NCBI GenBank assembly: GCA_024234575.1
Contig: JACKOB010000002.1
Span: 1,240,001-1,304,000, forward strand
Length of the DNA: 64,000 nucleotides
Direction: 5' to 3'
Source: Hahellaceae bacterium
GTDB taxonomy: Bacteria > Pseudomonadota > Gammaproteobacteria > Pseudomonadales > Oleiphilaceae
Shown: in pieces, positions 7,496 through 20,574 of the stretch
How the letters are laid out: the number at the start of each line of letters is the position of its first letter
How positions within the stretch are numbered: position 1 is the first letter of the stretch
The notes under the pieces: model-generated
The model's input: the letters and a program-made list of their open reading frames with translations, nothing else
Databases searched by the model: none
Told to the model about the DNA's origin: nothing
Made by a program: the position numbers and the translations under genes

Positions 7496-8566
7496 CTATT
7501 GCGCTTTTGGTGTTGCGTTGATGTTATAAAGCGTCTGCGTTGGGAAGGCAAACTCAAGCCCGGCGGCGTTAAAGCGTTTTAATACTGCCAGGTTGACTCT
7601 ATTTTGGGTGGCGGCGATGTTGCTGCTTTTGTTGATGTAATAGATAAACGTGATGTTCATCGAAAAATCACCAAAGCCGCTGAAGAAAATAATGCTGCCT
7701 TCATTTACCCCTTCGTCCTCGTTGGCAATTTCTTGCAGTATCTGCAACCCTTTTTCCATATCTTCTGGTGGGGTGTCATAGGTTAAACCAAGCTCCAGCG
7801 TGACTTTACGGGCAGGTTCCCAGCTGACGTTCTCGACGGCAGAGTCGGCAAATTTAGAGTTAGGAATTGTCACGATGCGACCGGCCAGCGTTTTTATCCG
7901 CGTGCTGCGAATACCGATTTCTGTCACCGTGCCATCGTATCCGTCGACCTGTACCCGATCATTTATTGAAAACGGCTTATCAGTCAGAATCGTAAAACCA
8001 CCAAATATATTGGCGACAGTATCTTTGGCTGCCATGGCAAGGGCCAAACCGCCAATGCCCAAACCTGCGATAAGTGCCGCCACATCGTAGCCTGCGTTGT
8101 TCAGGCCAACAATAATCGCCATACACCAGATGATCATTTTTAGCCCTTTACGCAAGAAGGGCAGTAGTTGGTCATCAAGGGTATTTTCACTGGACTTGGT
8201 AAGAGGCACCAGATACTCCTCGAACAAAGAATCTATTAACCTGCTGAGCAACCAGGCAACCATCATAAAAATGCCAAACTGCATCACGTGGCCTATCAGC
8301 GTTGACAGACCATCGGGAAGTGTCAACCCCTGTGTGGCCAGCCAGATGCCCGCAATAACGATCATCGCCACCAGAGGTTCTTCAACCATGTCGACTAAGA
8401 TGTCATCCAGTCGCGTGTTTGTGCTTGCGGTTAATTTTCGAAACACGGTTTTAAATATTCGGTAGACGACTCTGGCGATGAGCACCACCCCCAGAACGAT
8501 TCCCATCGCGGTTAGCCATTCCAACACGGTATTGTTGTAGTAAGTGTTGCTTAGCATCTCAGGCAT
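7496..8566 (-). CDS. MscS-family mechanosensitive ion channel
   Basis: 356 residues. Several N-terminal membrane helices (about 15-35, 60-80, 90-110, 130-150) precede the pore-lining helix AGLGIGGLALAMAAKDTVANIFGG (split pattern of Gly/Ala packing, about 165-188), the hallmark of MscS TM3. The soluble vestibule with the MscS beta domain follows (FSINDRVQVDGYDGTV). It opens under osmotic downshock to release solutes. Single-gene unit, ATG at 8566. Confidence 0.93.
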   Translation of the reverse strand: MPEMLSNTYYNNTVLEWLTAMGIVLGVVLIARVVYRIFKTVFRKLTASTNTRLDDILVDMVEEPLVAMIVIAGIWLATQGLTLPDGLSTLIGHVMQFGIFMMVAWLLSRLIDSLFEEYLVPLTKSSENTLDDQLLPFLRKGLKMIIWCMAIIVGLNNAGYDVAALIAGLGIGGLALAMAAKDTVANIFGGFTILTDKPFSINDRVQVDGYDGTVTEIGIRSTRIKTLAGRIVTIPNSKFADSAVENVSWEPARKVTLELGLTYDTPPEDMEKGLQILQEIANEDEGVNEGSIIFFSGFGDFSMNITFIYYINKSSNIAATQNRVNLAVLKRFNAAGLEFAFPTQTLYNINATPKAQ

Positions 8567-8778
8567 AAAAATCTCCGAATTAAATTGCCCTTAAAAAAGG
8601 CGAAAGAATAGCATTGGTAACCTGGCCTGAACAGGCAGGAATAGCGCTGATTGTCAGGCCAGCTTCAGCCGGGCGTGTTTATTTTCGTGGTAATGCAAAA
8701 ATATTTACGCTTTTTTTGAACCGTTTTTTAGTAATGCACGACAGAGCTGTGTAAACAAACAAATCACTGAAAGGAAAA

Positions 8779-9117
8779 ATGATTATGAAAACGACTTCAA
8801 AGACCTTCGCTGCTGTTGCAACACTAACTTTGGCATTCACCTCGGCAGCACATTCTGCAGTATTTGCAAAATATGACGGTATTGATGGCGAAAGTTCCTT
8901 CGCTAGTACCACGCAAATCGAATCATCAGGCAGTCAACCTGCGCGAAGTGCATCACCCCAAGGTCCCAATCACATTCAGTCGAATACAACTGGGACGACC
9001 ATGTTATTACTGCCCGCAGTGCAATCGGCCAGAGAGGCGGCTCGACGCGCATCACCTGCACCTACTAAGAAAAGAGCGGTAGAGGCTACCTGGAAGGTAG
9101 AAGAGGGTACCAAATAG
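8779..9117 (+). CDS. Small secreted protein with Hcp-like start and DUF1559-like tail motif
   Basis: 112 residues with a clean signal peptide (about 1-27, cleaved after AHSA). The mature N-terminus FAKYDGIDGESS matches the first strand of secreted Hcp-like proteins (usually KxDGIxGES). The C-terminal half contains MLLLPAVQSAREAARRA, which is very close to the segment after the prepilin helix in planctomycete DUF1559 proteins. It is far shorter than a full Hcp (about 160 residues). The Shine-Dalgarno AAAGGA favours ATG 8779 or the ATG two codons later. It looks like a mosaic or a decayed Hcp-like gene; function unknown. Confidence 0.6.
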   Translation: MIMKTTSKTFAAVATLTLAFTSAAHSAVFAKYDGIDGESSFASTTQIESSGSQPARSASPQGPNHIQSNTTGTTMLLLPAVQSAREAARRASPAPTKKRAVEATWKVEEGTK

Positions 9118-9355: not shown

Positions 9356-11449
9356 ATGCCGCCTCAGATTTGTATATCGGTTGCTGCTCAACTAAAAAGC
9401 CTCATCGTACTGGCTTTGATCGGGAGTTTGCTGACACCCTCAGTGTTGGCACAAAAGAGCGTGTTTTCAGAAAAGAGTGAGTTGTTAGTGCTGGATGCTA
9501 ACCGGCTGCTCACCGTTGCCTTACCTAAGAAGATAAATACCTTAGATGGTGCGCAACTGGCCGTCGAATTGGATGGTTATGATGTGTCACTGTTTGCTAG
9601 TGTCGAGGGCGTCAAGCTGTCATTGCAGTTAACAACCCCTATTGCTGAAGGTTCCCATGAGCTGAATGTTCTTGTTTTTCTGCCAAATGGTGAAATTGAG
9701 ACATTACTGGCGCAATCCTTTAATGCCCAACCGTTACCGGCAGATAGCCCCGATTGGGCGCTGAACTCCACATTGGCTACCAACTATCGGGTTGATGAAA
9801 AAGAAGAAGCAGATTTTGCAGAGATCAGAAAATTGTCTGGGCGGGGGGCGGTATCCGCAAGTGTTTATCAGCAGGCGGGTGGCTGGGAGCTCTCTGCCGA
9901 TATGGATGCACTGTATGACTCGGTGAGCCAGAACAACCCAGATAATGATGAGTGGGCATTACCTTCTTATTATTTGTCAGCGATCTATCCCGGTGAATCG
10001 GTCAACAGCAAATTGGCGATGGGTAATATTCGGCTGCAAAGAGATGATCTTTTATTTTCGGCCTATCAAAGACGCGGCGTCGAAGCCGGGGTCAGTGACT
10101 TGGATAACCGCTTTGATGTGCAGTTTTTTGGTCTTAAAGCTGAGCCTACGGCTGGTTACCATGGCAACCAGGTATTGCCCGCAAAGAGCCAGGAACAAGT
10201 CACTGGTGCGACGGCAAGGGTGGCGGTGCTGGATCAGTATCTGCAATTAAGTACCGGCTACTTAAATGGTGAAACCGCTTTGGGTGGTGCAGGTGTCAGT
10301 ACCGTGGGTGGTAATGCGCTTGAATATGGTGGCGATAGCTGGAACCTGGCGCTGGACTCGCAATTTATGCGCAATAGTATCTGGCTGCATGTTGAATATG
10401 CCCAATCTGAATTTGATAGTGATGGAATTGGTGTTGGTGAGAACGCAACCAAAGACGATGCAGCACAAGCGCTGTTGCAACTTTCGTCCGAGGGAGATTT
10501 TGGTAGCGGTGTTTTCGATTTCTGGTCAGGGGTGTTACAGCACCAGAAAGTGGGTGCGGATTTTTTTAGTCTGGGTAACTTATCCCTGCCGGGGGATCGC
10601 GCGCTGAACCGATTGTTGTTTAAAGGGGCGCGCGGCGGACTGGGGTTTGAAGTGAGTTGGTCAGACGAAGAAAACAATACCGATAATGACCCGACACTGC
10701 CCACCCAAACGTTGAATCGTGTTGGCTCGGACATTAATTACACACCAATGTGGCTGAATCCGGAAAACCCGGTCTGGCAATTGCTGGGCAATCCGTCCCT
10801 CGCTGCACGATATTACCGGACACGGCAGGATCAGCCAGGGGAGCAGGCTGAGGTATATGGCTTTGATCTCGACAACACAACGGATGAAACCGGACTAACG
10901 CTAAGTTTCGCCCGCAACACTTTTAACTGGAGTGTGCAATATCAGCTGATTGATAGAGACGACCGCTCTCGCGAAGTCTATCTGGGGGAGTATCTGGCGT
11001 ATGTTCCACCCTCCGACAGTGAAAATCATCTGACCGGGGTTCAACTGGGCTGGTTCCCCAGTCAGCGCTTCTCACTCAATGCCTCCGTGCAGTGGAACAA
11101 ACAGATTGAGCTTGATTCGGGGAATCGCTATCGCCGGCGTAATTTTAGCATCGGTGGTTACTCTCAGGTTATACCGGATGAGGTATCCGTCATGGTGAAT
11201 TACAACTATGGTAAAAATACCTCCGATCTGACTGACAACTTGTTTGTTGATGAAGACTTTCAGAGCCAGTTTGTTAATGGACAGGTAACCTGGAGTGCGC
11301 GCAAGAGCAAAGGTATCCATCCCGGTATCAATCTTTATTTAAAGGGCAGCTACGGCCTGCAGGACAATCAGGCATATTCGCAAACTACCGAACAATGGTC
11401 GGCGCTTCTGGGCGCTGAAGTATTCTGGGATACAGGAGCAAGGCGATGA
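9356..11449 (+). CDS. Predicted outer-membrane beta-barrel protein, first gene of sigma/protease operon
   Basis: 697 residues with a signal peptide (about 1-32, cleavage after VLA). An N-terminal beta domain (about 35-135) is followed by a long region of alternating hydrophobic/aromatic strands with Asp/Asn/Gly-rich turns, as in an outer-membrane barrel of about 20 or more strands. The end, VFWDTGARR, is aromatic but lacks the classic C-terminal Phe. I do not recognise a named family. The next gene starts inside its stop codon (ATGA overlap), so the two are translated together; the barrel may export or anchor the repeat protein. Function is inferred from context only. Confidence 0.75.
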   Translation: MPPQICISVAAQLKSLIVLALIGSLLTPSVLAQKSVFSEKSELLVLDANRLLTVALPKKINTLDGAQLAVELDGYDVSLFASVEGVKLSLQLTTPIAEGSHELNVLVFLPNGEIETLLAQSFNAQPLPADSPDWALNSTLATNYRVDEKEEADFAEIRKLSGRGAVSASVYQQAGGWELSADMDALYDSVSQNNPDNDEWALPSYYLSAIYPGESVNSKLAMGNIRLQRDDLLFSAYQRRGVEAGVSDLDNRFDVQFFGLKAEPTAGYHGNQVLPAKSQEQVTGATARVAVLDQYLQLSTGYLNGETALGGAGVSTVGGNALEYGGDSWNLALDSQFMRNSIWLHVEYAQSEFDSDGIGVGENATKDDAAQALLQLSSEGDFGSGVFDFWSGVLQHQKVGADFFSLGNLSLPGDRALNRLLFKGARGGLGFEVSWSDEENNTDNDPTLPTQTLNRVGSDINYTPMWLNPENPVWQLLGNPSLAARYYRTRQDQPGEQAEVYGFDLDNTTDETGLTLSFARNTFNWSVQYQLIDRDDRSREVYLGEYLAYVPPSDSENHLTGVQLGWFPSQRFSLNASVQWNKQIELDSGNRYRRRNFSIGGYSQVIPDEVSVMVNYNYGKNTSDLTDNLFVDEDFQSQFVNGQVTWSARKSKGIHPGINLYLKGSYGLQDNQAYSQTTEQWSALLGAEVFWDTGARR

Positions 11450-14400
11450 GATCCTTAAGGCTAAAATGTTCGATGATTGAGCGGCCAGTGCTGCGTTTTA
11501 GCGTCAACCAATGGGATCATGTTCGTATGTCTGGCAACAAATTATGCAGAAAGATTTTGCTGGTGATCACGGCGATGCTATCGCTTCTAGCGGTCAATGC
11601 ATTCGCGAGTATTACGGGCGTCACCGTGACACCGTCTCAGCAAACGATGAGTGTAACGGTTACTAATACTGTGTCGTTAATCTGGAAGGCTACCGCCACA
11701 TCGAGCCACATCTCAGGCGTCACCTCTGCGCAGGCATTGTTTGTTCACCCGTCTACGGGGGCGACCCTGGGAACCGCCAGCGGCACCCTATCAGGATCGG
11801 GTAGCGGACCATTTAGCCTCTCAGAAACTTTAACCATCAGCACATCCCAGGTACTGGCATGGCAAGGGCTTGGGCTCTCAAAAGTGCTGGTACGGCGCAC
11901 GTTTGGTGATACCGCTTCAACGACAACGGTTGCTGCCGAGATGGCGCTGTTGATTCCGGCTGCAGCGGTTGGAGGTTTGACCGGCGCCAGCGTCTCACCT
12001 GTGCAAACATCGTTAAGTGGGACATCGAATTCGTCGATAACCGCCAGCTGGCAGCTCAGTACAGCGTCGGGGCACAGTACCGGGGCGACGTCGAGCGTAG
12101 CCATTGTCATAAATCCTGCAAATGGTGCCAGTTTAGGTTCTGTCGGATCAACCTTGTCGGCCAGCGGCACGGGGCCCTTTAACCTCAACGAAACGATCAA
12201 TATAAGCCTGGCCCAGGTGCAAAGCTGGCAAGCACAGTCGTTGAGTCAGGTACGATTGCGACGCACCTTTACCGATACGGCCACCTCAACCTCGGCGACA
12301 GCAGAAATGATTTTGCTGGTGCCTGCGCCACTACCAACAGGGTTGGTAAGTGCTAATGTGAGTCCCGCACAAAGCAGTCTGGATGATGCTGATATGAATA
12401 ATCTGTCTTTGACCTGGCAGGTAATAGCGGCAAGTGGGCATAGCACCGGGTTTAATTCAGCCAGTGCCAGCTACATTGATCCCGGCAATGGCAGCGGGCT
12501 GGGCAATACTGGGGCCAGTTTGAGCGGCACGGGAGGCGGGCCATTTAATTTGAGCGAGTCTGTTTCGATCTCCGCGTCTCAGGTGCAAAGCTGGCAATCA
12601 CAAGGTTTGTCTCGCGTTGTGTTACGCCGGGTATTTAGTGATGCCAGCACTGCCACTTCCGTTACTGCAGAGGTTGAGTTGCTCGTTCCCGAAGTATCAC
12701 CGATTGGCTTGATCAGTGCTGCAGTGACGCCATTGCAGACGTCTCTGGCCGATGCGAGTGGTGTCAGTATTAGTCTTAATTGGCAGGTATTGGCGCAAAG
12801 CGGCCATGTTTCAGGGCTTTCATCCAGTAACGGCAGTTATATTCATGCTGCCAACGGTGCAGTGATTGGCACGGCTGGCACGATGCTTTCCGCGGCCGGA
12901 GCAGGGCCGTTTAATCTGGGCGAAGCACTTACTTTGTCTGCAGCGCAGATACAAAGCTGGCAACAGCAGGGCGTTACCGAAGTATTGTATCGCCGTACTT
13001 TTTCAGACCCGGTATCTGCGACTTCGGTTGCTGCAGAGTCTCTAATTCTTATACCTGATTTGGCGGCATTGGGGGGATTACTTAACGCCAGTGGCACGCC
13101 AACGCCATTACAATTGAGTGCCGGGCAAGTGAATAATTTAAGTATTCGCTGGCAAGTGATTGCGCAAAGTGGTCATACGACAGGGGTGTCATCGGCCGCG
13201 GCCAGCCTGCAGCATCCGACGAACAGCACCCTGTTGGGAATGGTAGGAGGGAGTTTGTCAGCTGCTGGTGCCGGGCCTTTTTTGTTGAATGAGACGATTA
13301 GCATCAACCAGGGTCTGGTGCAGACATGGCAGGCACAAGGGATTGACCGTGTTATCCTGACACGAAATTTTACCGCACCCGACAGTGCCGGTGGCAATGC
13401 CACCGAAGTGACAGCCAACATTGTGTTACTGGTGCCTTCTATCTCGGGGTCGAATGATGGCGGTGGTACAAATGGCACGCTTGGTTTAAACAGTGCAAGC
13501 GTGAGTCCTGCCCAGTCGGTGGCCAGTGCCGTAACGACCACGAGTTTGGGCCTGGCATGGCAGATTAGTGCAGATAGTGGCTACAGTGGTGGTGTTGAGT
13601 CGAATGCAGTCAGCGTTGTTGATCCGTCGACTGGCGCTGTACTGGGTACAATGGGCATGCGCTTGGCTGCGGCAGGTAGCGCGCCATATCTCCTGAATGA
13701 AACCCTTGTTATTTCATCCGGGCAGGTACAAACCTGGCAAGCGATGGGGCTGGAAACGTTGCTGCTGCGCAGAGTGTTCGGTGATGCCTTGGCGACGACT
13801 CAGGTAACTGCAGAACTGGTCCTGTCACTTCCCGCGCGAGGCAGTATCAACAGTGCACGGGTGAGTCCGGCCACGTATCAGGCATATGCCAGTCAGGATA
13901 ATACGATTATGGCGAACTGGCAGGTCAGTACCGGTACAGCGCACCAAAATGGCATTGTTTCTCCCGTGGCTTCGGTGAAAAACCCCCGGTCGGGCGCACT
14001 ATTAACAGAAGTGGCTGGGAGCTTGAGTGCCACCGGGACGGGCCCCTTCTTTTTTAATGAAACACTAACCCTGGCCGATGATTTAGTGCAAACCTGGCTT
14101 AGCCAGGGAATAAAACAAGTTGTCATTGAGCGTGTCTTTAGTGATCCGGTGGATGGTAGTAAGACAATGGCTGCGATGGCCGTCAGTATAAATAGCAGTG
14201 CCTTGACTGCGGCGCGTAATGCCTCAGAAAGTGTCTTGCGGGTGCAAGGATTACGTCTCGAATTCGACAATGGCGTCAATCTGACCCTGATAGACTTGAA
14301 CGCTGAGATAACCGCCAGGTTGACGTTGAGCTATTCAGGTGTGGGTCTTCTCGAAGGAATTTGGCAGGTGGCTGAGGCAGGCAGTACGGATAGTTTGCCA

Positions 14401-14973
14401 CTGTATCGCACGTTGATGCTGGTTCGGGAAAACCTGTCGGGAAGCCAGCGCGCCACGCTGCAGAGCCCTGTCTTACCCAGCTCGCGTTCAGGTAAATATC
14501 TGGTTCGCTTCTGTGTCACCGGGCCGGCGGCTAACGCTGCGGGTAACAATGCTTCCGGGCAGTGTAGTGAGGATCTGTTAAGCGTCAATGGTTCTTATCA
14601 AGTGCAAGCGTCTGGTACCGTTACGCCGAAGATAACGGTGTTATCACCAAGACAGCAGACAGTCGTCGATACCACGCCCTTTAGTTGGCAAGCGTTTGCA
14701 GAAGCCCGTATTTATCGTATTCAGATATTTGAAAAGGTAGCGGGGCAGCAAAAACTGGCCAGTTCTGTCGAGCAGGCAGAGATGTCTGTGCCAGCGTTTG
14801 TTTCCGGACAAATACTGCCAGCCCATATTACCAGCAGCGCATTGTCAGAGCTGGTGCGTAGTAAACTGCAACCAGGCCGACTCTATCAATGGCGTGTAAC
14901 GGCCCACGATCAGGACGGAAAAGTTGTTGCCAGCAGTAGTTTGTTTACCTTTGCCTATCAACCACATGAGTGA
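11446..14973 (+). CDS. Giant secreted protein with seven tandem repeats of about 120 residues
   Basis: 1175 residues. A signal peptide lies at about 28-54 (MSGNKLCRKI then a hydrophobic core, cleavage after AFA). Seven repeats follow to about residue 920, each with the pattern SxxVSPxQ, SLxWQV, SGHSTG, GxxLSAxGxGPFxLxET, VQxWQ, LxRxFxD and ending VTAEVxLLVP. The C-terminal 250 residues are different and finish in a fibronectin-like sandwich (YQWRVTAHDQDG). Shine-Dalgarno AGGAG and the ATGA overlap with the barrel gene support ATG 11446; ATG 11527 would give a standard-length signal peptide. The next gene, the sigma factor, overlaps or abuts its stop. It is likely a surface or adhesive protein and may be the substrate of the operon's protease. 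Confidence 0.8.
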   Translation: MRSLRLKCSMIERPVLRFSVNQWDHVRMSGNKLCRKILLVITAMLSLLAVNAFASITGVTVTPSQQTMSVTVTNTVSLIWKATATSSHISGVTSAQALFVHPSTGATLGTASGTLSGSGSGPFSLSETLTISTSQVLAWQGLGLSKVLVRRTFGDTASTTTVAAEMALLIPAAAVGGLTGASVSPVQTSLSGTSNSSITASWQLSTASGHSTGATSSVAIVINPANGASLGSVGSTLSASGTGPFNLNETINISLAQVQSWQAQSLSQVRLRRTFTDTATSTSATAEMILLVPAPLPTGLVSANVSPAQSSLDDADMNNLSLTWQVIAASGHSTGFNSASASYIDPGNGSGLGNTGASLSGTGGGPFNLSESVSISASQVQSWQSQGLSRVVLRRVFSDASTATSVTAEVELLVPEVSPIGLISAAVTPLQTSLADASGVSISLNWQVLAQSGHVSGLSSSNGSYIHAANGAVIGTAGTMLSAAGAGPFNLGEALTLSAAQIQSWQQQGVTEVLYRRTFSDPVSATSVAAESLILIPDLAALGGLLNASGTPTPLQLSAGQVNNLSIRWQVIAQSGHTTGVSSAAASLQHPTNSTLLGMVGGSLSAAGAGPFLLNETISINQGLVQTWQAQGIDRVILTRNFTAPDSAGGNATEVTANIVLLVPSISGSNDGGGTNGTLGLNSASVSPAQSVASAVTTTSLGLAWQISADSGYSGGVESNAVSVVDPSTGAVLGTMGMRLAAAGSAPYLLNETLVISSGQVQTWQAMGLETLLLRRVFGDALATTQVTAELVLSLPARGSINSARVSPATYQAYASQDNTIMANWQVSTGTAHQNGIVSPVASVKNPRSGALLTEVAGSLSATGTGPFFFNETLTLADDLVQTWLSQGIKQVVIERVFSDPVDGSKTMAAMAVSINSSALTAARNASESVLRVQGLRLEFDNGVNLTLIDLNAEITARLTLSYSGVGLLEGIWQVAEAGSTDSLPLYRTLMLVRENLSGSQRATLQSPVLPSSRSGKYLVRFCVTGPAANAAGNNASGQCSEDLLSVNGSYQVQASGTVTPKITVLSPRQQTVVDTTPFSWQAFAEARIYRIQIFEKVAGQQKLASSVEQAEMSVPAFVSGQILPAHITSSALSELVRSKLQPGRLYQWRVTAHDQDGKVVASSSLFTFAYQPHE

Positions 14974-14978
14974 TTAGT

Positions 14979-15572
14979 ATGAGCCGCTTCAAGACGGAGA
15001 AAAGTAACGAACCGGATGCCAGTGACGAATCTTTGCTGCGACGCATAGCCAGTCAGGATGAGCAGGCAATGGAATTATTTTATCAACGGCATGGGAGTGC
15101 CGTTTTTCAGTTTGCCGAGAAAACGTTGCGTAATCCGGCAGATGCCTCAGAAATATGTAACGAAGTAATGATGGAGGTCTGGCGTAAAGCCAATACTTTT
15201 TCAGGCGGGTCGAAAGTAAAAACCTGGTTGCTTAGTATTGCCCATCATAAAGCAGTGGACACAGTGCGCCGAAAATCCCGGCACGATGGCAATGACCCGC
15301 TGGACGAAGAATTTGTTGTCAGCCAACAATGCTCGCTTGAAGACGCTCGTGCTGGTGCCGAAGACAAAGTGCGTATCAAGCGTTGTATGAGTGAATTAAA
15401 GCAAGGGCATCAGCAAGTGGTTCACCTGACGTTTTTTGAAGGCTTAGGTTATCCGGAGATTGCTAACATATTAGAAATACCTGCCGGCACGGTAAAAACG
15501 CGGATGATGCACGCGAAAAATCAACTCATGAATTGTTTGTCGAGGATCGTTGGTCGCGGCGCGGTAACCTAA
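14979..15572 (+). CDS. ECF (sigma-70 family) RNA polymerase sigma factor
   Basis: About 197 residues. Sigma region 2 spans about 30-95 (MELFYQRHGSAVFQFAEK, then KVKTWLLSIAHHKAVD with the -10 recognition helix) and region 4 spans about 125-180 (QVVHLTFFEGLGYPEIANIL, then GTVKTRMMHAKNQL). No region 3 is present, as in ECF sigma factors. ATG 14979 is used; a GTG at 14970 overlaps the previous stop as GTGA and is possible. An anti-sigma gene follows 128 bp later, so the pair forms a signal-responsive switch that probably controls its own operon. Confidence 0.95.
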   Translation: MSRFKTEKSNEPDASDESLLRRIASQDEQAMELFYQRHGSAVFQFAEKTLRNPADASEICNEVMMEVWRKANTFSGGSKVKTWLLSIAHHKAVDTVRRKSRHDGNDPLDEEFVVSQQCSLEDARAGAEDKVRIKRCMSELKQGHQQVVHLTFFEGLGYPEIANILEIPAGTVKTRMMHAKNQLMNCLSRIVGRGAVT

Positions 15573-15616
15573 GCGTTTATATTGAACCTATTCACATTTT
15601 GATACGACAGATAGTT

Positions 15617-15697
15617 ATGGCAATCCTTGCTGGTCTAAAGATCGCTTTGGGCGTTAATAAGCCGCTGCAGGATGCGCAGGAAAAGTTTCTGAGGTGA
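15617..15697 (+). CDS. Possible 26-residue ORF between sigma and anti-sigma genes
   Basis: ATG 15617 opens a 26-codon frame (MAILAGLKIALGVNKPLQ and on) that stops 3 bases before the anti-sigma ATG. Its last codons contain GAGGTG, the likely ribosome-binding site of the anti-sigma gene. No strong ribosome-binding site precedes it. It may be a leader peptide that tunes anti-sigma translation, or a chance frame. Confidence 0.25.
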   Translation: MAILAGLKIALGVNKPLQDAQEKFLR

Positions 15698-15700
15698 CCT

Positions 15701-16300
15701 ATGAAAGACCATGAACTAGAAAATTTATTGCCCTGGTATGTAAACGGCACCCTGGATAGCGAAGAGCAGGCGGCGGTTGAATCGTTATTACAACGATCGC
15801 CACAAGCGCGGGAGCAGGTTGCGGTACTGCGTAGCATTGCACAACAGGTGCAATCCGAGCCAAAGGCCGAGGTATCTGAATTAGGCTGGCGGCGTTTACA
15901 GCGGGATATTCGAGCCGAAGCTAAACCGGCGTCCCATGACTGGTGGAAAAAAGGGTTTGCCGCCGCCGCGATGCTGGTGATTGCTTTGCAAGTGGGCATA
16001 CTGGCAAAAGACCCGGCGACGGACGACATCAACACGCGTCTGCTTGGTGGCGCCGTGCCGGGTATTGAGCAGCCGCACTGGCTGCTGCAAGTCGAATTTA
16101 AGGAAGACGCCCCTTGGACGCATATTAGCAGCGTGCTTGCAGAGGTTGACGCTCAGCTGGTTGGTGGCCCCGGCAATTTGGGGCTGGTTCGGATTGCCAT
16201 CCCCAAAGAGCAAAGCAAGTTTGTTGATGCTGAGGCACTGCTAAAATGGTTTCACGAGCAGCCATTAATTACCCACGTGGCGTTGGAAGCAGAAAAGTGA
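15701..16300 (+). CDS. Membrane-anchored anti-sigma factor with propeptide-like periplasmic domain
   Basis: 199 residues. The N-terminal cytoplasmic part (HELENLLPWYVNGTLDSEE, about 3-60) looks like an anti-sigma domain but lacks the HxxxCxxC zinc ligands. One membrane helix lies at about 85-102 after WWKK. The periplasmic domain (about 126-199) has a beta-alpha-beta-beta-alpha-beta pattern with QLVGGPGNLGLVRIAIP and EALLKWFHEQPLITHVAL, similar in layout to inhibitor I9-type propeptides of subtilases. The following gene is a secreted subtilase whose GTG start overlaps this stop. It probably holds the ECF sigma factor at the membrane and releases it on a periplasmic signal. The propeptide resemblance is my inference. 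Confidence 0.85.
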   Translation: MKDHELENLLPWYVNGTLDSEEQAAVESLLQRSPQAREQVAVLRSIAQQVQSEPKAEVSELGWRRLQRDIRAEAKPASHDWWKKGFAAAAMLVIALQVGILAKDPATDDINTRLLGGAVPGIEQPHWLLQVEFKEDAPWTHISSVLAEVDAQLVGGPGNLGLVRIAIPKEQSKFVDAEALLKWFHEQPLITHVALEAEK

Positions 16301-18204
16301 AACGGTACGGCGGACTGATTCGGCACCTGGGTGTGGTGGGGTTGTTACTGGCGGGTTTCAATGTTAGTGCCGAAACTGCCCGAGACACCGCCGCTGGCGC
16401 AAATACACTGCCGCCAAGAGCCGCGGTGAGCTCACGCCCTGCTGCATCTTCAGCACCAGTGGAACCCGCTACGGCCACTCCGGTAACGGGCGCGTTTCCA
16501 TCTTCAACAGCGCCAACTTCAACACCGTCAGGCCCAATACCATCAAGCGCACCAACCACAGGCCCTGCGAGCCCTTCCTCCCCACCGACGACTACGGTAC
16601 CTGTCGTTAGGGTTCCGCAACCCGGTGTGAGCAGCCCTCGGCCCACATCCTCAGCACCTTCGATACCCGCGGAACCGACTACTGGTGTGCCTGCTGATCC
16701 TGTACCGCTATCGATACCAGCAGCCAATATCCCGTCGACGTCATCGCGGTCACCCGCTACTAGCTCATCACCGACAGGCAGCCCCCTGAACTTTTCTGTA
16801 CGTGTCACACCAGAACCTGCTGTACAGCCTCTGCCATCCGCGGATGTATCAGCATCTTCGGCAAGTGTTCCAGCAGATAGACAGGTTCCTGCGGCGGCCG
16901 TGCCCAACGCGGCCGCGCCTGATCATACCAGCGTAGCCGCTCCGACAAGGCCCGATGCAGAACCGGAGCCCCTACCAGCTAAAGATACGCGCACAGAGTC
17001 AACCTTGTTGACAGAACCCACCGAGGTGGTCAATGCAAAGCCTGACCCTGATACGCAACGGTTGCCTGATGTTGCTGACGATGCAAGTCCAACAAAATAT
17101 CAACCCACGCCATCGTTACTAAAGTTGCAGCGAGCCGATAGCCTCAGCGGCATGGCAATACCTAGCGCCCCAGCGCTTATTGCCACCGAGGGTGAATTGC
17201 CACCTTTGGGCCAGCTGTTACTTGATGCGCCAGACATGGCCAGCGCCGAAAAACAACGTCGTGAGCTTGCGCCCATGGGTTTAAAAATTGTTTCGCGTAA
17301 AAACTTGCCGGGGCTTGGGCTGGTGCTTAGCACATTCCGTTTGCCGGATGATGCCGATAGTGATGGCGTTCTTGCGGCTGTTAAAGCCCTATTTCCGCAG
17401 GCCACCGCAGAACTTAACCAGCGTTACCGCCTGTTGTTCAGTAAAAATCAAAGCTATGCCCAAAAACTGGTCGGCGTGCAAACACCGTCGCGATGCAGGC
17501 AAACCGTTGCGTTGGCGATGCTCGATAGTGCGGTGAATACTCAGCTTTCTTTTTTACCGGGGGAGCGGGTAAAGAGTATTGATGTCACCAACCGGGAAAC
17601 CCTTTCAGCAAAACATGGTACAGGTGTGGCGACAATTATGGTGGCAGATGATCAAGCTTATCCCAGCCTGTTACCCAACGGTCAACTCACGGCCGTGAAC
17701 GTGTTTGCCCTTGATGAGAAAGGTGACCCGGAAACACGTACCGATTGGCTTCTCTATGGCTTAAATGCGTTAACCAGTATTCAGCCGATGCCTCTGGCAG
17801 TGAATCTTAGTTTTGGTGGCAATGACAGCCCCTTGCTTAAAAATGCCATCAACCGATTATCTGCCATGACGACTTTTATTGCCGCTGCCGGTAACGATGG
17901 CAGTGATAAACTGGTTTACCCGGCGGCCTACCAATCAGTTTATGCGGTAGGTGGTGTGGATGCAAAAGGCCGAAAAACAAGCGGTTCAAACTACGGCAAA
18001 CATTTAGCCATAATGGCCCCCGGAGAGGATATCTGGACCAGTGATGATAGTGGCAACGGTTATTACGCCACAGGCACCTCCTTTGCCGCCCCCTTCGCTA
18101 CCGTGGCGATAGCGCTGGCCAAAAACGCCGGTCTTTCGGTGGACGATTTTGTCGCATCCTTGGGTGAGAGCCGGTTAGTGAATTTGGCTGGTTTATGTCC
18201 CTAG
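16297..18204 (+). CDS. Secreted subtilisin-like serine protease (S8) with long Pro/Ser/Thr linker
   Basis: 635 residues from GTG 16297, which overlaps the anti-sigma stop as GTGA and gives a good signal peptide (about 1-26, VSA). Residues about 30-290 are a low-complexity Pro/Ala/Ser/Thr-rich linker. Residues about 303-390 resemble an I9-type prodomain. The catalytic domain has Asp410 (AMLDS), His440 (KHGTGVATIM), oxyanion Asn533 (AAAGNDG) and Ser595 (GTSFAAPFA), so it should be active. The long linker suggests reach across the periplasm or cell wall. In this operon it may cleave the anti-sigma factor or the repeat protein; neither is shown. Confidence 0.9.
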   Translation: MKRYGGLIRHLGVVGLLLAGFNVSAETARDTAAGANTLPPRAAVSSRPAASSAPVEPATATPVTGAFPSSTAPTSTPSGPIPSSAPTTGPASPSSPPTTTVPVVRVPQPGVSSPRPTSSAPSIPAEPTTGVPADPVPLSIPAANIPSTSSRSPATSSSPTGSPLNFSVRVTPEPAVQPLPSADVSASSASVPADRQVPAAAVPNAAAPDHTSVAAPTRPDAEPEPLPAKDTRTESTLLTEPTEVVNAKPDPDTQRLPDVADDASPTKYQPTPSLLKLQRADSLSGMAIPSAPALIATEGELPPLGQLLLDAPDMASAEKQRRELAPMGLKIVSRKNLPGLGLVLSTFRLPDDADSDGVLAAVKALFPQATAELNQRYRLLFSKNQSYAQKLVGVQTPSRCRQTVALAMLDSAVNTQLSFLPGERVKSIDVTNRETLSAKHGTGVATIMVADDQAYPSLLPNGQLTAVNVFALDEKGDPETRTDWLLYGLNALTSIQPMPLAVNLSFGGNDSPLLKNAINRLSAMTTFIAAAGNDGSDKLVYPAAYQSVYAVGGVDAKGRKTSGSNYGKHLAIMAPGEDIWTSDDSGNGYYATGTSFAAPFATVAIALAKNAGLSVDDFVASLGESRLVNLAGLCP

Positions 18205-18258: not shown

Positions 18259-18274
18259 ACATGATGCATCATGT
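18259..18274. repeat. Perfect 16-bp palindrome between convergent genes
   Basis: ACATGATGCATCATGT is its own reverse complement. It lies 55 bp after the subtilase stop and overlaps the stop codon of the convergent histidine-kinase pseudogene. No T run is attached, so it is more likely a protein-binding site or chance than a terminator. Confidence 0.35.
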
Positions 18275-20574
18275 GTTTAAATATCTTGTTAGTGTTTCAA
18301 TCAGTACCTCTTTTCTAACGGGTTTTGCCAGATAAAAGTCCATCCCACAATCGATACAGCGCTGCTGATCCTCTGTGGAAACATTCGCTGTCACGGCAAT
18401 GATCGGTATTTTAGAGTAAACGTTATGGTTTCTGATGATTCGAGTAGCCTCATAACCGTCCATTACTGGCATTTGACAATCCATTAGAATTGCTTCGATA
18501 TCGTTTTGTTCATTCAAAATAGAAATCGCGTCCTCACCATGTATGGCTGCCAATGGGCTGTATCCAACCTTTTCCAGTAGTTTGCACAGTAATTTTGAAT
18601 TTACAGGGTTATCTTCGACAACAAGTATTTTTGATTTCTTCGTGCCTTCATTTGGCGTAACTTGTGCTGAGGCCAAGTCATTTTTCTTAAGCGATGCTAT
18701 TTCTTCCTGGGAAGGAAGGGATAGAGGCATGACGAATGTTGCACGGGTTCCTTTGCCAACTTCAGATATCAACTCAAGTTTAGTATTAAATAAGTTGAGT
18801 ATATCTTTAGCTAGGATAGGCCAATTCCTAATCCTCCGTGCTCTCTTTTTAATGAGTTATCGGCTTGATTGAAGGCCTCAAACAAGGTATCTAGCTTTTC
18901 TGAATCGATACCAATACCTGTATCTTTTACCGATACACGGCAATGCGAATCTCCTTCGAGAGTTAAACTCATTACAACGCTGCCTGACTTAGTGTATGAA
19001 CATGCGTTTTTCATCAACTGGGAAAGTACAAGGGTGAATTTCTTCTCATCAAGAAGTACATAATCAGGTAGTTGTGCGTCCCAGATAAAATCTAAGCTAA
19101 CACCATTCTTTTTAGAATTATGAAAGTAATTGAAAACATTCTCGCAGGATTGTTTAAATCTAACGAGCGATTCTTCAAGTTTGATAGATCCTCTTCGAGC
19201 CTCGACAAATGTAAACATAGACTCAATAAGTTTGAGTAAATGAGAGTTAGAGTCGTTAGCTGTTTGGTATAGCTGCTTGTCTTCACTGGTTATAAATTTG
19301 TCCTTTAGTAAATCGAGGCTAAGTCGAATACCATTTACCGGTGTCAAGAGCTCGTGCGTTATTGTAGACATGAACTCATCTTTTAATTTATTTGCACTTT
19401 GCTCAGTTTTTAACGCCTCAGCTTTTAACAAATTGATGCGATCGGCGAGACCTAGTGAAAGTAATACCGCTTCAATGACGCTTCCAATTTGAACTGCATA
19501 CAAAGTGAACCAATCACTTGGTAGTAAACCCATTAACCTGAACAGGAATAGAAAAGAAGATAGTAATAGAACTGACCAAGCGGCTAAGTAAAAGCGAGCT
19601 TGCCTACTGCCTGCTTTTAGCGAGGCTATCCCAGCAGAAGCCATGGCAACTGAAGATAAAAGCCTAGAAAAACAGCGAGGTAAGCTGGTATGGAAAAAGG
19701 AAGAAGAATAACTAGTAGGCAATTAATTAATGACCCGTACCCTAGAATTTGCATCGCGTTATGATGCTTAGGGCAGTATCGTTGTGTGAATAAAATGACT
19801 GAGTAAAGCGCAGAGCGAAAAGCAAGGTTAAGCTAATGCCAAATATCAAGGCGTTATTTGTCCACCACGGCCAGTCTGGCCAAACTAGCATGACACCATA
19901 GCCTTGAACAGTAAGTTGGAATATCCCCATGCAAAGAATAAACAGGACATAGTAAAGATAAGTTCTGTCTCTAACCGAAAGATAAATAAACAAATTATAT
20001 AATGCCATTACGAACAAAATTCCAAAGTACACGCCTTGAAAATAGCTAAAACTAACGGCAGTCTCTATTAGCGATGTTTCAGAAATCAATGTCATGGAAA
20101 GATTCATTACGCTTTGGGTTTCAAAACGAGCGTAATAAGTGGCTGCGTCATTGCTTGGATTGATAGGAAACAGGAAAAATTATTTTTCGTAGGTCGACTG
20201 GCAAAAGGTCTCTTATCCCCGGTTTTTATAACTGTATAAGTGCCGGTGCGTTCATTGGGTGAATAAAAGTCTATGTAATCTGTAGGAGGGTAGTTGACTC
20301 GCAAATGCCAGTCTTGATGTTGCGACAGATTCTCAACAGTAAACCGCACCCAGTAGATCGAGTTAGTGATCCCAAAATTTAAGCGATTTGGGCTGTCAAA
20401 TTTTTTAGTTCTTATTTCGTCAAAAGATTCTTGTCCATCGTCATCGATATAAATTTCAAGCTTTTTGCCAACCTCGAATTTAAGATCATTGTCTGTAAGC
20501 GTGATAATGGCATGAGAGTCAAAAGAAATCAGAAGTAAGATTGTAAAAAATGATCTATAAAAACGACTTAGCAT
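18269..20574 (-). pseudogene. Hybrid 7TMR-DISM sensor histidine kinase broken by four frameshifts
   Basis: One gene read in five successive frames. From 20574: signal peptide and 7TMR-DISMED2 extracellular domain (IYWVRFTVEN); then seven-helix DISM membrane domain (YFGILFVMALYNLFIYLSV onward); then a coiled linker and His-kinase domain with H-box HELLTPVNGI, N-box NACSY, DTGIGID and GLGIGL; then a receiver domain (VVEDNPVNSK, phospho-Asp in LMDCQMPVMDG). Breaks lie near 20185, 19750, 19655 and 18828. Each acts as a one-base loss, and adding one base to a short run (T5, A3, T4 or T5, C2) restores the family sequence, for example GLGIGLSLAKD. Either a decayed gene or local sequence errors. The region looks more AT-rich than its neighbours. 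Confidence 0.85.

Follow-up and report, generated by a model that had tools for sequence, protein, structure and literature searches.

The closest studied case to the locus described here is the RpoE6-EcfR6 pair of Sinorhizobium meliloti, which belongs to group ECF26 of the extracytoplasmic function (ECF) sigma factor systems and is accompanied by a divergent, sigma-dependent gene for the serine protease SMa0142 (PMC6180224, available excerpt). For group ECF54, the available excerpt of PMC8999054 describes conserved subtilase and CHAT-domain genes nearby, a proposed proteolytic control, and no anti-sigma factor. Here we analyze a 64,000-nucleotide (nt) stretch of DNA, referred to as the window, from Hahellaceae bacterium (GCA_024234575.1, contig JACKOB010000002.1, positions 1,240,001-1,304,000, forward strand; coordinates below count from the first letter of the window). 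It contains a cassette of five genes that encode a barrel-like protein, a repeat protein, an ECF sigma factor, an anti-sigma factor and an S8 subtilase. Its sequence features support the view that it is an autoregulated sigma circuit that serves exported proteins and has a feedback promoter inside the operon. As judged from profile comparisons, the periplasmic domain of the anti-sigma factor falls in a family with kinship to a subtilase prodomain. The genes and the domains discussed below are as follows (ORF, open reading frame; aa, amino acids):

9356-11449, + strand: outer-membrane barrel-like protein, ORF of 697 aa, no known family
11446-14973, + strand: secreted repeat protein, ORF of 1175 aa
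14970-15572, + strand: ECF sigma factor, 200 aa, assigned by Pfam and NCBIfam
15701-16300, + strand: anti-sigma factor, 199 aa, with anti-sigma domain (LPWYVNGT), one transmembrane helix and a periplasmic domain
16070-16297, + strand: periplasmic domain of the anti-sigma factor; its family is akin to the fervidolysin-type subtilase prodomain
16297-18204, + strand: secreted S8 subtilase (PF00082), with signal peptide, Pro-rich linker, prodomain-like segment and catalytic domain
17194-17436, + strand: prodomain-like segment of the subtilase (A4), from its position and an alignment of 16 proteins

The five-gene order and its conservation

All five ORFs were confirmed in the order given in a preliminary description of this DNA (barrel-like protein, repeat protein, sigma factor, anti-sigma factor, subtilase), and the sigma factor, anti-sigma factor and subtilase named there agree with family matches. 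The assignments "barrel", transmembrane helix and signal peptide were read from the sequence, without a structure or a predictor. Three of the four junctions overlap, as had also been noted: the barrel and repeat genes share ATGA at 11446, with AGGAG 8 nt 5' of it; the repeat and sigma genes share GTGA at 14970 (an alternative ATG lies at 14979); and the anti-sigma and protease genes share GTGA at 16297. The protease ORF opens at 16246 and its likely start is the GTG at 16297, within the anti-sigma stop. The sigma and anti-sigma genes are separated by a gap of 128 nt.

The sigma factor matched Sigma70_r2 (5.1e-15), r4_2 (6.5e-11) and, above its cut-off, the NCBIfam sigma70-ECF model (2.6e-24); it contains regions 2 and 4 only, as ECF sigma70 factors require. 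The anti-sigma factor matched the NCBIfam anti-sigma model at 5.5e-12, below the curated cut-off, and zf-HC2 at a sub-threshold level, the latter model being matched at E<=1 by 74 of 81 members of the anti-sigma family. Its N-terminal domain and the location of its gene next to the sigma gene are those of a putative membrane-bound anti-sigma factor of the zf-HC2/RskA-like type. The protease matched PF00082 at 1.5e-23, and its catalytic Asp, His and Ser residues and the oxyanion Asn are intact in all 20 aligned proteins, the window protein and 19 relatives.

The barrel-like protein had no Pfam match and no Pfam or NCBIfam receptor match, so that no TonB-dependent receptor was recognized; a single full-length copy is present in each of the 11 operon genomes searched. 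The repeat protein, with no family match above a cut-off, begins with seven modules of ~122 aa each (about 11605-14206), an array longer than in any aligned relative, and its C-terminal part is common to ~400-aa relatives that have one module. At the DNA level a 66-nt core occurs in five copies, 61-71% like the reference, and Tandem Repeats Finder reported no array in the gene; the repeats are old and recognizable at the protein level. In an Oceanicoccus locus (L103, 5444-7448) the repeat gene is distributed over several ORFs, by frameshift or by assembly error in the repeats. In a Methylomirabilota genome (L021, 264-2744) repeat-protein-like domains are followed by a subtilase in one fused protein, encoded 5' of the sigma/anti-sigma pair.

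To follow the gene order in relatives, the check named in the preliminary description, we used two anchors. A protein search with the anti-sigma factor returned 21 proteins, one of them from Oceanicoccus sp. KOV_DT_Chl, and their alignment was used, through two peptide patterns, to scan genomes. In the best 80 of 111 confirmed places, which were kept, the sigma gene lies upstream in 79, a subtilase gene downstream in 50, and the complete five-gene order is present in 13, including Marinobacterium, Pelagibius and other Alphaproteobacteria, Chromatiales, Sedimenticola and a Nitrospiria genome. A further locus, L006, has the first four genes and then the contig end; its sigma factor was found inside a longer ORF, outside the position filter. 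The second scan was anchored on the barrel and is independent of the anti-sigma anchor. Among 390 genomes of the order to which Marinobacterium (G001) belongs it had matches in 12, and among 289 of the class that includes G005, from which L007 comes, in 6. Full-length barrels were found in 12 genomes, two being those of L001 and L007, the two loci common to both sets. The whole five-gene order is present at 11 of the 12 (L001, L007 and nine new loci); at the twelfth, L108, the contig ends after the sigma gene. The operon was absent at all four short barrels (L109-L112, 521-608 aa), a related barrel family, and at two weak partial matches (L117, L118). The order is thus kept in relatives under both anchors. 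The pairwise distances of the five proteins correlate over 22 loci (r 0.76-0.90, Mantel p 0.001 for each pair; L103, with its repeat gene in pieces, was left out), and given these correlations the association of the five genes, as far as sequences can tell, is not due to chance.

Promoter-like sites and the exported proteins

We searched the sequences upstream of 24 barrels for pairs of a 5-mer and a 4-mer with a spacer of 15-19, and compared the counts with ten base-shuffled sets. The pair GAACC..CGAC occurred in 7 of the 24 sequences, and no pair in any shuffled set exceeded 5; the overlapping pairs TGAAC..CGAC and GAACC..GACT reached 6. The half-sites of the resulting pattern, TGAACC-N16-CGAC, resemble the -35 and -10 elements of ECF promoters. 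In the open-licence PMC literature, a scope outside which most subscription papers fall, we found no paper connecting TGAACC with ECF factors. The strict pattern has two mismatch-free sites in the window, and the first precedes a sixth gene:

8717-8742, + strand: ECF-type promoter-like site 5' of the small secreted-protein gene, perfect TGAACC-N16-CGAC
8785-9117, + strand: small secreted protein, 110 aa, ORF opening at 8779, a probable regulon member
15583-15608, + strand: ECF-type promoter-like site in the sigma/anti-sigma gap, a perfect match, 92 nt before the anti-sigma start

With one mismatch allowed, the window has 4 matches where 2.9 are expected by chance, and the weight of the two window sites therefore rests on the relatives. 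The 24 operon loci comprise the window, 9 loci of the barrel set and 14 from the anti-sigma set, the truncated L006 among the latter. In the range that opens 1 kb upstream of the barrel and reaches 2.5 kb beyond the start of the anti-sigma gene, they contain 40 sense sites, distributed over 23 loci. Of these sites, 11 stand at most 150 nt upstream of the anti-sigma gene (11 of the 24 loci, window included), 10 precede the repeat gene, 11 fall in the kilobase leading up to the barrel, 5 lie between tandem repeat genes and 3 follow closely on the protease. From the barrel start to the anti-sigma start there are 26 sense and 0 antisense sites. The 1 kb before the barrel has 11 sense and 4 antisense sites (L003, L008 and twice L106), and all four antisense sites precede divergent ORFs (108-658 aa) whose starts are signal-peptide-like, one of them lipoprotein-signal-like. 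Past the anti-sigma start the numbers are 3 and 1. The reversed pattern, used as the control, was absent from all three ranges. The sites upstream of the barrel are partly circular with the discovery set, while the anti-sigma sites and most repeat-gene sites lie outside it. In a wider set, a site was found by the sigma start in 13 of 66 loci (control, 0 of 66).

In view of the perfect site in the 128-nt gap, a single transcript of all five genes is improbable, and the counterparts of this site in front of the anti-sigma gene in relatives make it probable that the anti-sigma and protease genes also have a transcript of their own. The proposal that the five genes form one translational unit is thus borne out at the three overlaps, but not across the gap with its ECF-type site.

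The site in front of the small secreted-protein gene lies 36-42 nt upstream of it. This protein, with 7 database relatives at E<=0.01, belongs to a family with the motifs K-x-DGIDGE and LLLPAVQ; the promoter motif also precedes relatives in Oceanicoccus (L121, L123, L124, L136) and at L106, where the second family motif is missing. Pfam gave no match. The N-terminal motif may resemble the N-termini of Hcp of the type VI secretion system, and LLLPAVQ-x-AREAARR a motif of planctomycete DUF1559 proteins. In the Oceanicoccus genome, taken to be G185 (its anti-sigma factor is identical to P0005), there are 20 motif sites and 13 of the reversed pattern. Seven of the 20 fall within 19 kb round the operon, and a signal-peptide-like ORF follows 11 of the 20 sites and none of the 13 controls, by a simple in-house rule applied alike to sites and controls. 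A stricter motif (TTTGAACC) gave 15 sites and 2 controls in five other operon genomes, with 8 of the 15 preceding signal-peptide-like ORFs. Two kinds of target recur in four genomes each: secreted proteins of 178-194 aa, alike at E ~2e-18 or better, with a CARDB domain in one scanned member, and secreted proteins of 377-433 aa, alike at E ~2e-16 or better. Lipoprotein-like proteins and relatives of the 8785-9117 protein are further recurrent targets. Taken together, the motif probably marks an exported-protein regulon.

Several observations weigh against this assignment. Two unrelated GC-rich pairs likewise rose above the shuffled sets in motif discovery (6 of 24); L017, where the barrel lies at a contig end, is without any motif site; and the window has no site, with up to 2 mismatches, directly before the barrel, repeat or sigma gene. 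In Marinobacterium there are 35 sites and 11 controls, and since only 4 of 30 examined sites precede a signal-peptide-like ORF, many sites there are due to chance; plausible targets do follow three sites close to the operon.

Scans for terminators and sigma-70 promoters stayed at about shuffle level, and there was no sign of a structured RNA end 3' of the protease gene (z 0.02). The cassette is flanked on the opposite strand by a gene for an MscS-type mechanosensitive channel upstream (7496-8566, - strand) and by one for a 7TMR-DISM hybrid histidine kinase with a receiver domain (18272-20574, - strand). The latter is split over four ORF pieces and looks broken, unless these are sequencing errors.

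The periplasmic domain of the anti-sigma factor

In the 81 anti-sigma factors, PF22148 (Fervidolysin_NPro-like) is the commonest Pfam match after zf-HC2 among the best 25 of 54 families, with 24 proteins at E<=1 and a best value of 7.4e-7. When eight relatives were scanned singly against the PF22148 cut-off of 21 bits, two were above it, three were below and three had no match; L048 and L054, of group A5, exceed the cut-off with 29.9 and 24.7 bits. The group of the window protein, A3, aligns with A5 at an hhalign value of 99.5% (E 4.4e-23), and at the profile level the two groups are homologous. Within the window's subset, 11 of 19 domains match PF22148 at E<=1, and the next family is matched by 2 of 19. 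A PF22148 search of four operon genomes returned one protein, in a 675-aa open frame on a contig other than that of the operon, and Pfam alone therefore does not find these domains.

A gene for an S8 subtilase (46) or a caspase-like C14 protease (12) adjoins 58 of 65 domain-positive anti-sigma genes, a count within loci picked by likeness to the window, some of which served to build the profiles, and not a frequency for anti-sigma factors at large. It covers loci in which the contig continues for 900 nt or more past the anti-sigma gene; six others, of which five are positive and one negative, were left out because they are truncated. Among the seven positives without such a neighbor, L021 has its fused subtilase upstream and three have a C14 gene 2.8-4.2 kb away. 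Rhodocyclaceae/Burkholderiales-type genomes (L023, L032, L037, L043, L047 and others) have a domain-bearing anti-sigma factor followed by Peptidase_C14 and no subtilase. Five of the nine domain-negative anti-sigma genes have neither S8 nor C14 beside them; one of these, L033, has a CHAT-TPR gene.

The link of this domain to a prodomain has to be set against the following. The window's own periplasmic domain has no Pfam match. The comparison of A3 with the protease's own prodomain was weak (hhalign probability 5%, E 0.007), as was the match of the A4 segment to PF22148 (2 of 16, best E 0.021), and close kinship between the anti-sigma domain and the protease's own prodomain was dismissed. In 50 subtilases, profiles built on the anti-sigma domain found weak, mostly partial matches. 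Sequence and profile searches of the PDB with the anti-sigma factor or its domain gave chance-level matches only, ribosomal S6 among them, and no subtilase prodomain was recovered in the profile searches with the domain. An S8 neighbor is also found at 4 of the 9 domain-negative anti-sigma genes and 12 domain-positive ones adjoin the caspase-like protease, so the pairing is not S8-specific.

A possible mechanism and its relation to known systems

The analysis presented here allows us to propose how the cassette could work. In this proposal the anti-sigma factor would keep the sigma factor at the inner membrane, and the exported subtilase would dock on the prodomain-like domain of the anti-sigma factor, much as a subtilase does on its own prodomain, and this contact would leave the protease restrained but poised. 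Envelope cargo, whether repeat protein not yet assembled, barrel load or secreted proteins of the regulon, might then compete for or free the protease. The freed subtilase would make the first cut in the anti-sigma factor, in the periplasm, intramembrane proteolysis would follow, and the sigma factor would be released. It would activate the barrel gene, the repeat-protein gene and those for the exported proteins, presumably through the motif described above, while the internal promoter would supply new anti-sigma factor and protease and close a negative feedback loop. The prodomain relation and the gene pairing, together with what is generally known of regulated proteolysis, suggest the docking and cutting steps, and load or misassembly of the barrel, repeat or secreted proteins is the simplest guess for the sensed signal. 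We regard the whole, an ECF-run envelope-signalling and export cassette in which the docked subtilase is the site-1 protease, as having an even chance of being right. That the anti-sigma factor contains a captured subtilase prodomain acting in trans, both restraining the neighboring protease (a subtilase, elsewhere a caspase-like enzyme) and serving as its substrate, is a tentative idea to which we give somewhat less than even weight.

The subtilase could instead be an effector only, which matures or trims the exported regulon or the repeat protein, with the anti-sigma factor controlled by other means, for example of the DegS/RseP type, and its domain a small sensor fold. That the probable regulon consists of exported proteins, that the subtilase of L021 is fused behind repeat-protein-like domains, and that similarity between the anti-sigma domain and the prodomain of the protease itself is only weak would all agree with such a role. 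We nevertheless consider it rather unlikely, given that the anti-sigma and protease genes adjoin even where barrel and repeat genes are undetected (S8 or C14 at 58 of 65). Alternatively, in cell-surface signalling the barrel could contact the anti-sigma factor, or the repeat protein bridge the two, shielding it from or exposing it to proteolysis in the manner of a TonB transducer, with the subtilase secondary. The barrel, repeat, sigma and anti-sigma proteins do co-vary (r 0.78-0.90) in the same operon, and the available part of PMC11637429 describes a barrel transducer that shields an anti-sigma factor from proteolysis. However, no TonB-dependent receptor can be recognized in a barrel without a family match, and the barrel is undetected in 66 of the 80 anti-sigma loci, some of them on short contigs, which makes this explanation improbable.

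The plainest view, an ordinary ECF sigma/anti-sigma operon beside functionally unrelated envelope genes, would account for the wide occurrence of sigma, anti-sigma and protease genes without a detected barrel and repeat protein. It is hard to reconcile with a five-gene order recovered from an independent anchor in two classes, with the correlated protein distances and with the common promoter motif, and we hold it to be very improbable. The preliminary description had suggested a self-regulating system, which fits, and a protease acting on the anti-sigma factor, a suggestion strengthened by the prodomain-related domain found in the anti-sigma family. Trimming of the repeat protein, also suggested there, is supported only indirectly, by the L021 fusion. 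The five genes of its inventory stand, the promoter sites, the upstream sixth gene, the probable exported-protein regulon and the prodomain relation having been overlooked; as a whole, that interpretation is partly supported.

To our knowledge, how signals are sensed outside the cytoplasm is unknown for most anti-sigma factors. If the prodomain-like domain couples the anti-sigma factor to a protease, it would offer a testable sensing mechanism for many sigma systems, in Proteobacteria and beyond. If the captured-prodomain idea holds, it would be a widespread, undescribed module of site-1 proteolysis, and the state of a periplasmic protease would be coupled directly to transcription of an exported-protein programme. 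The promoter motif with its exported targets gives a concrete, checkable regulon, and uncharacterized barrels, repeat proteins and small secreted proteins gain a first functional context. Among the matches listed for titles and beginnings of abstracts in open-licence PMC papers (subscription papers lie mostly outside this scope), there was no anti-sigma factor with a subtilase prodomain and no such gene order.

The locus shares with RpoE6-EcfR6 the adjoining genes for an ECF sigma factor, a membrane anti-sigma factor and a serine protease, the autoregulation and what may be a sigma-dependent promoter of the anti-sigma gene, which in that system lies inside the sigma gene (PMC6180224, available excerpt). 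On the other hand, the RpoE6 promoter is GGAATA/GT (section 7 of that excerpt) and not TGAACC/CGAC, and the protease gene is divergent there, unlike in the window operon. Membership in ECF26 was rejected, as neither a GGAATA-type promoter nor an EcfR-type periplasmic domain was found. Plasmid loci of Sinorhizobium, Aminobacter and Paracoccus likewise carry a sigma gene, an anti-sigma gene (in Paracoccus a hypothetical protein) and a divergent S8 gene; from its gene order, the S. meliloti one is probably the RpoE6-EcfR6 locus. In all three of these anti-sigma factors the N-terminal halves match the family and the profiles of the prodomain-like domain gave no match, and no barrel or repeat gene is annotated in the ~9 kb covered at each locus. 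Assignment to ECF54 was also rejected, since an anti-sigma factor is encoded here and that group, in the excerpt cited above, is described without one.

As in FecA-FecR-FecI/IutY cell-surface signalling, as far as the excerpts on it go, an outer-membrane barrel is encoded together with a sigma and an anti-sigma factor. The window differs in having no recognized TonB-dependent receptor by Pfam or NCBIfam, for which reason membership in FecI/FecR was not assigned, and in its additional subtilase and repeat protein. The model of stepwise proteolysis of a membrane anti-sigma factor that frees an envelope sigma factor is borrowed from RpoE-RseA with DegS and RseP (PMC8103513, available excerpt). 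Here an adjoining subtilase would stand in place of DegS, the periplasmic domain is prodomain-like, and the other genes differ. Finally, the relation to subtilase prodomains of the PF22148 type is one at the family level: the domain of the window lies within a membrane anti-sigma factor and is thus encoded in trans to the protease.

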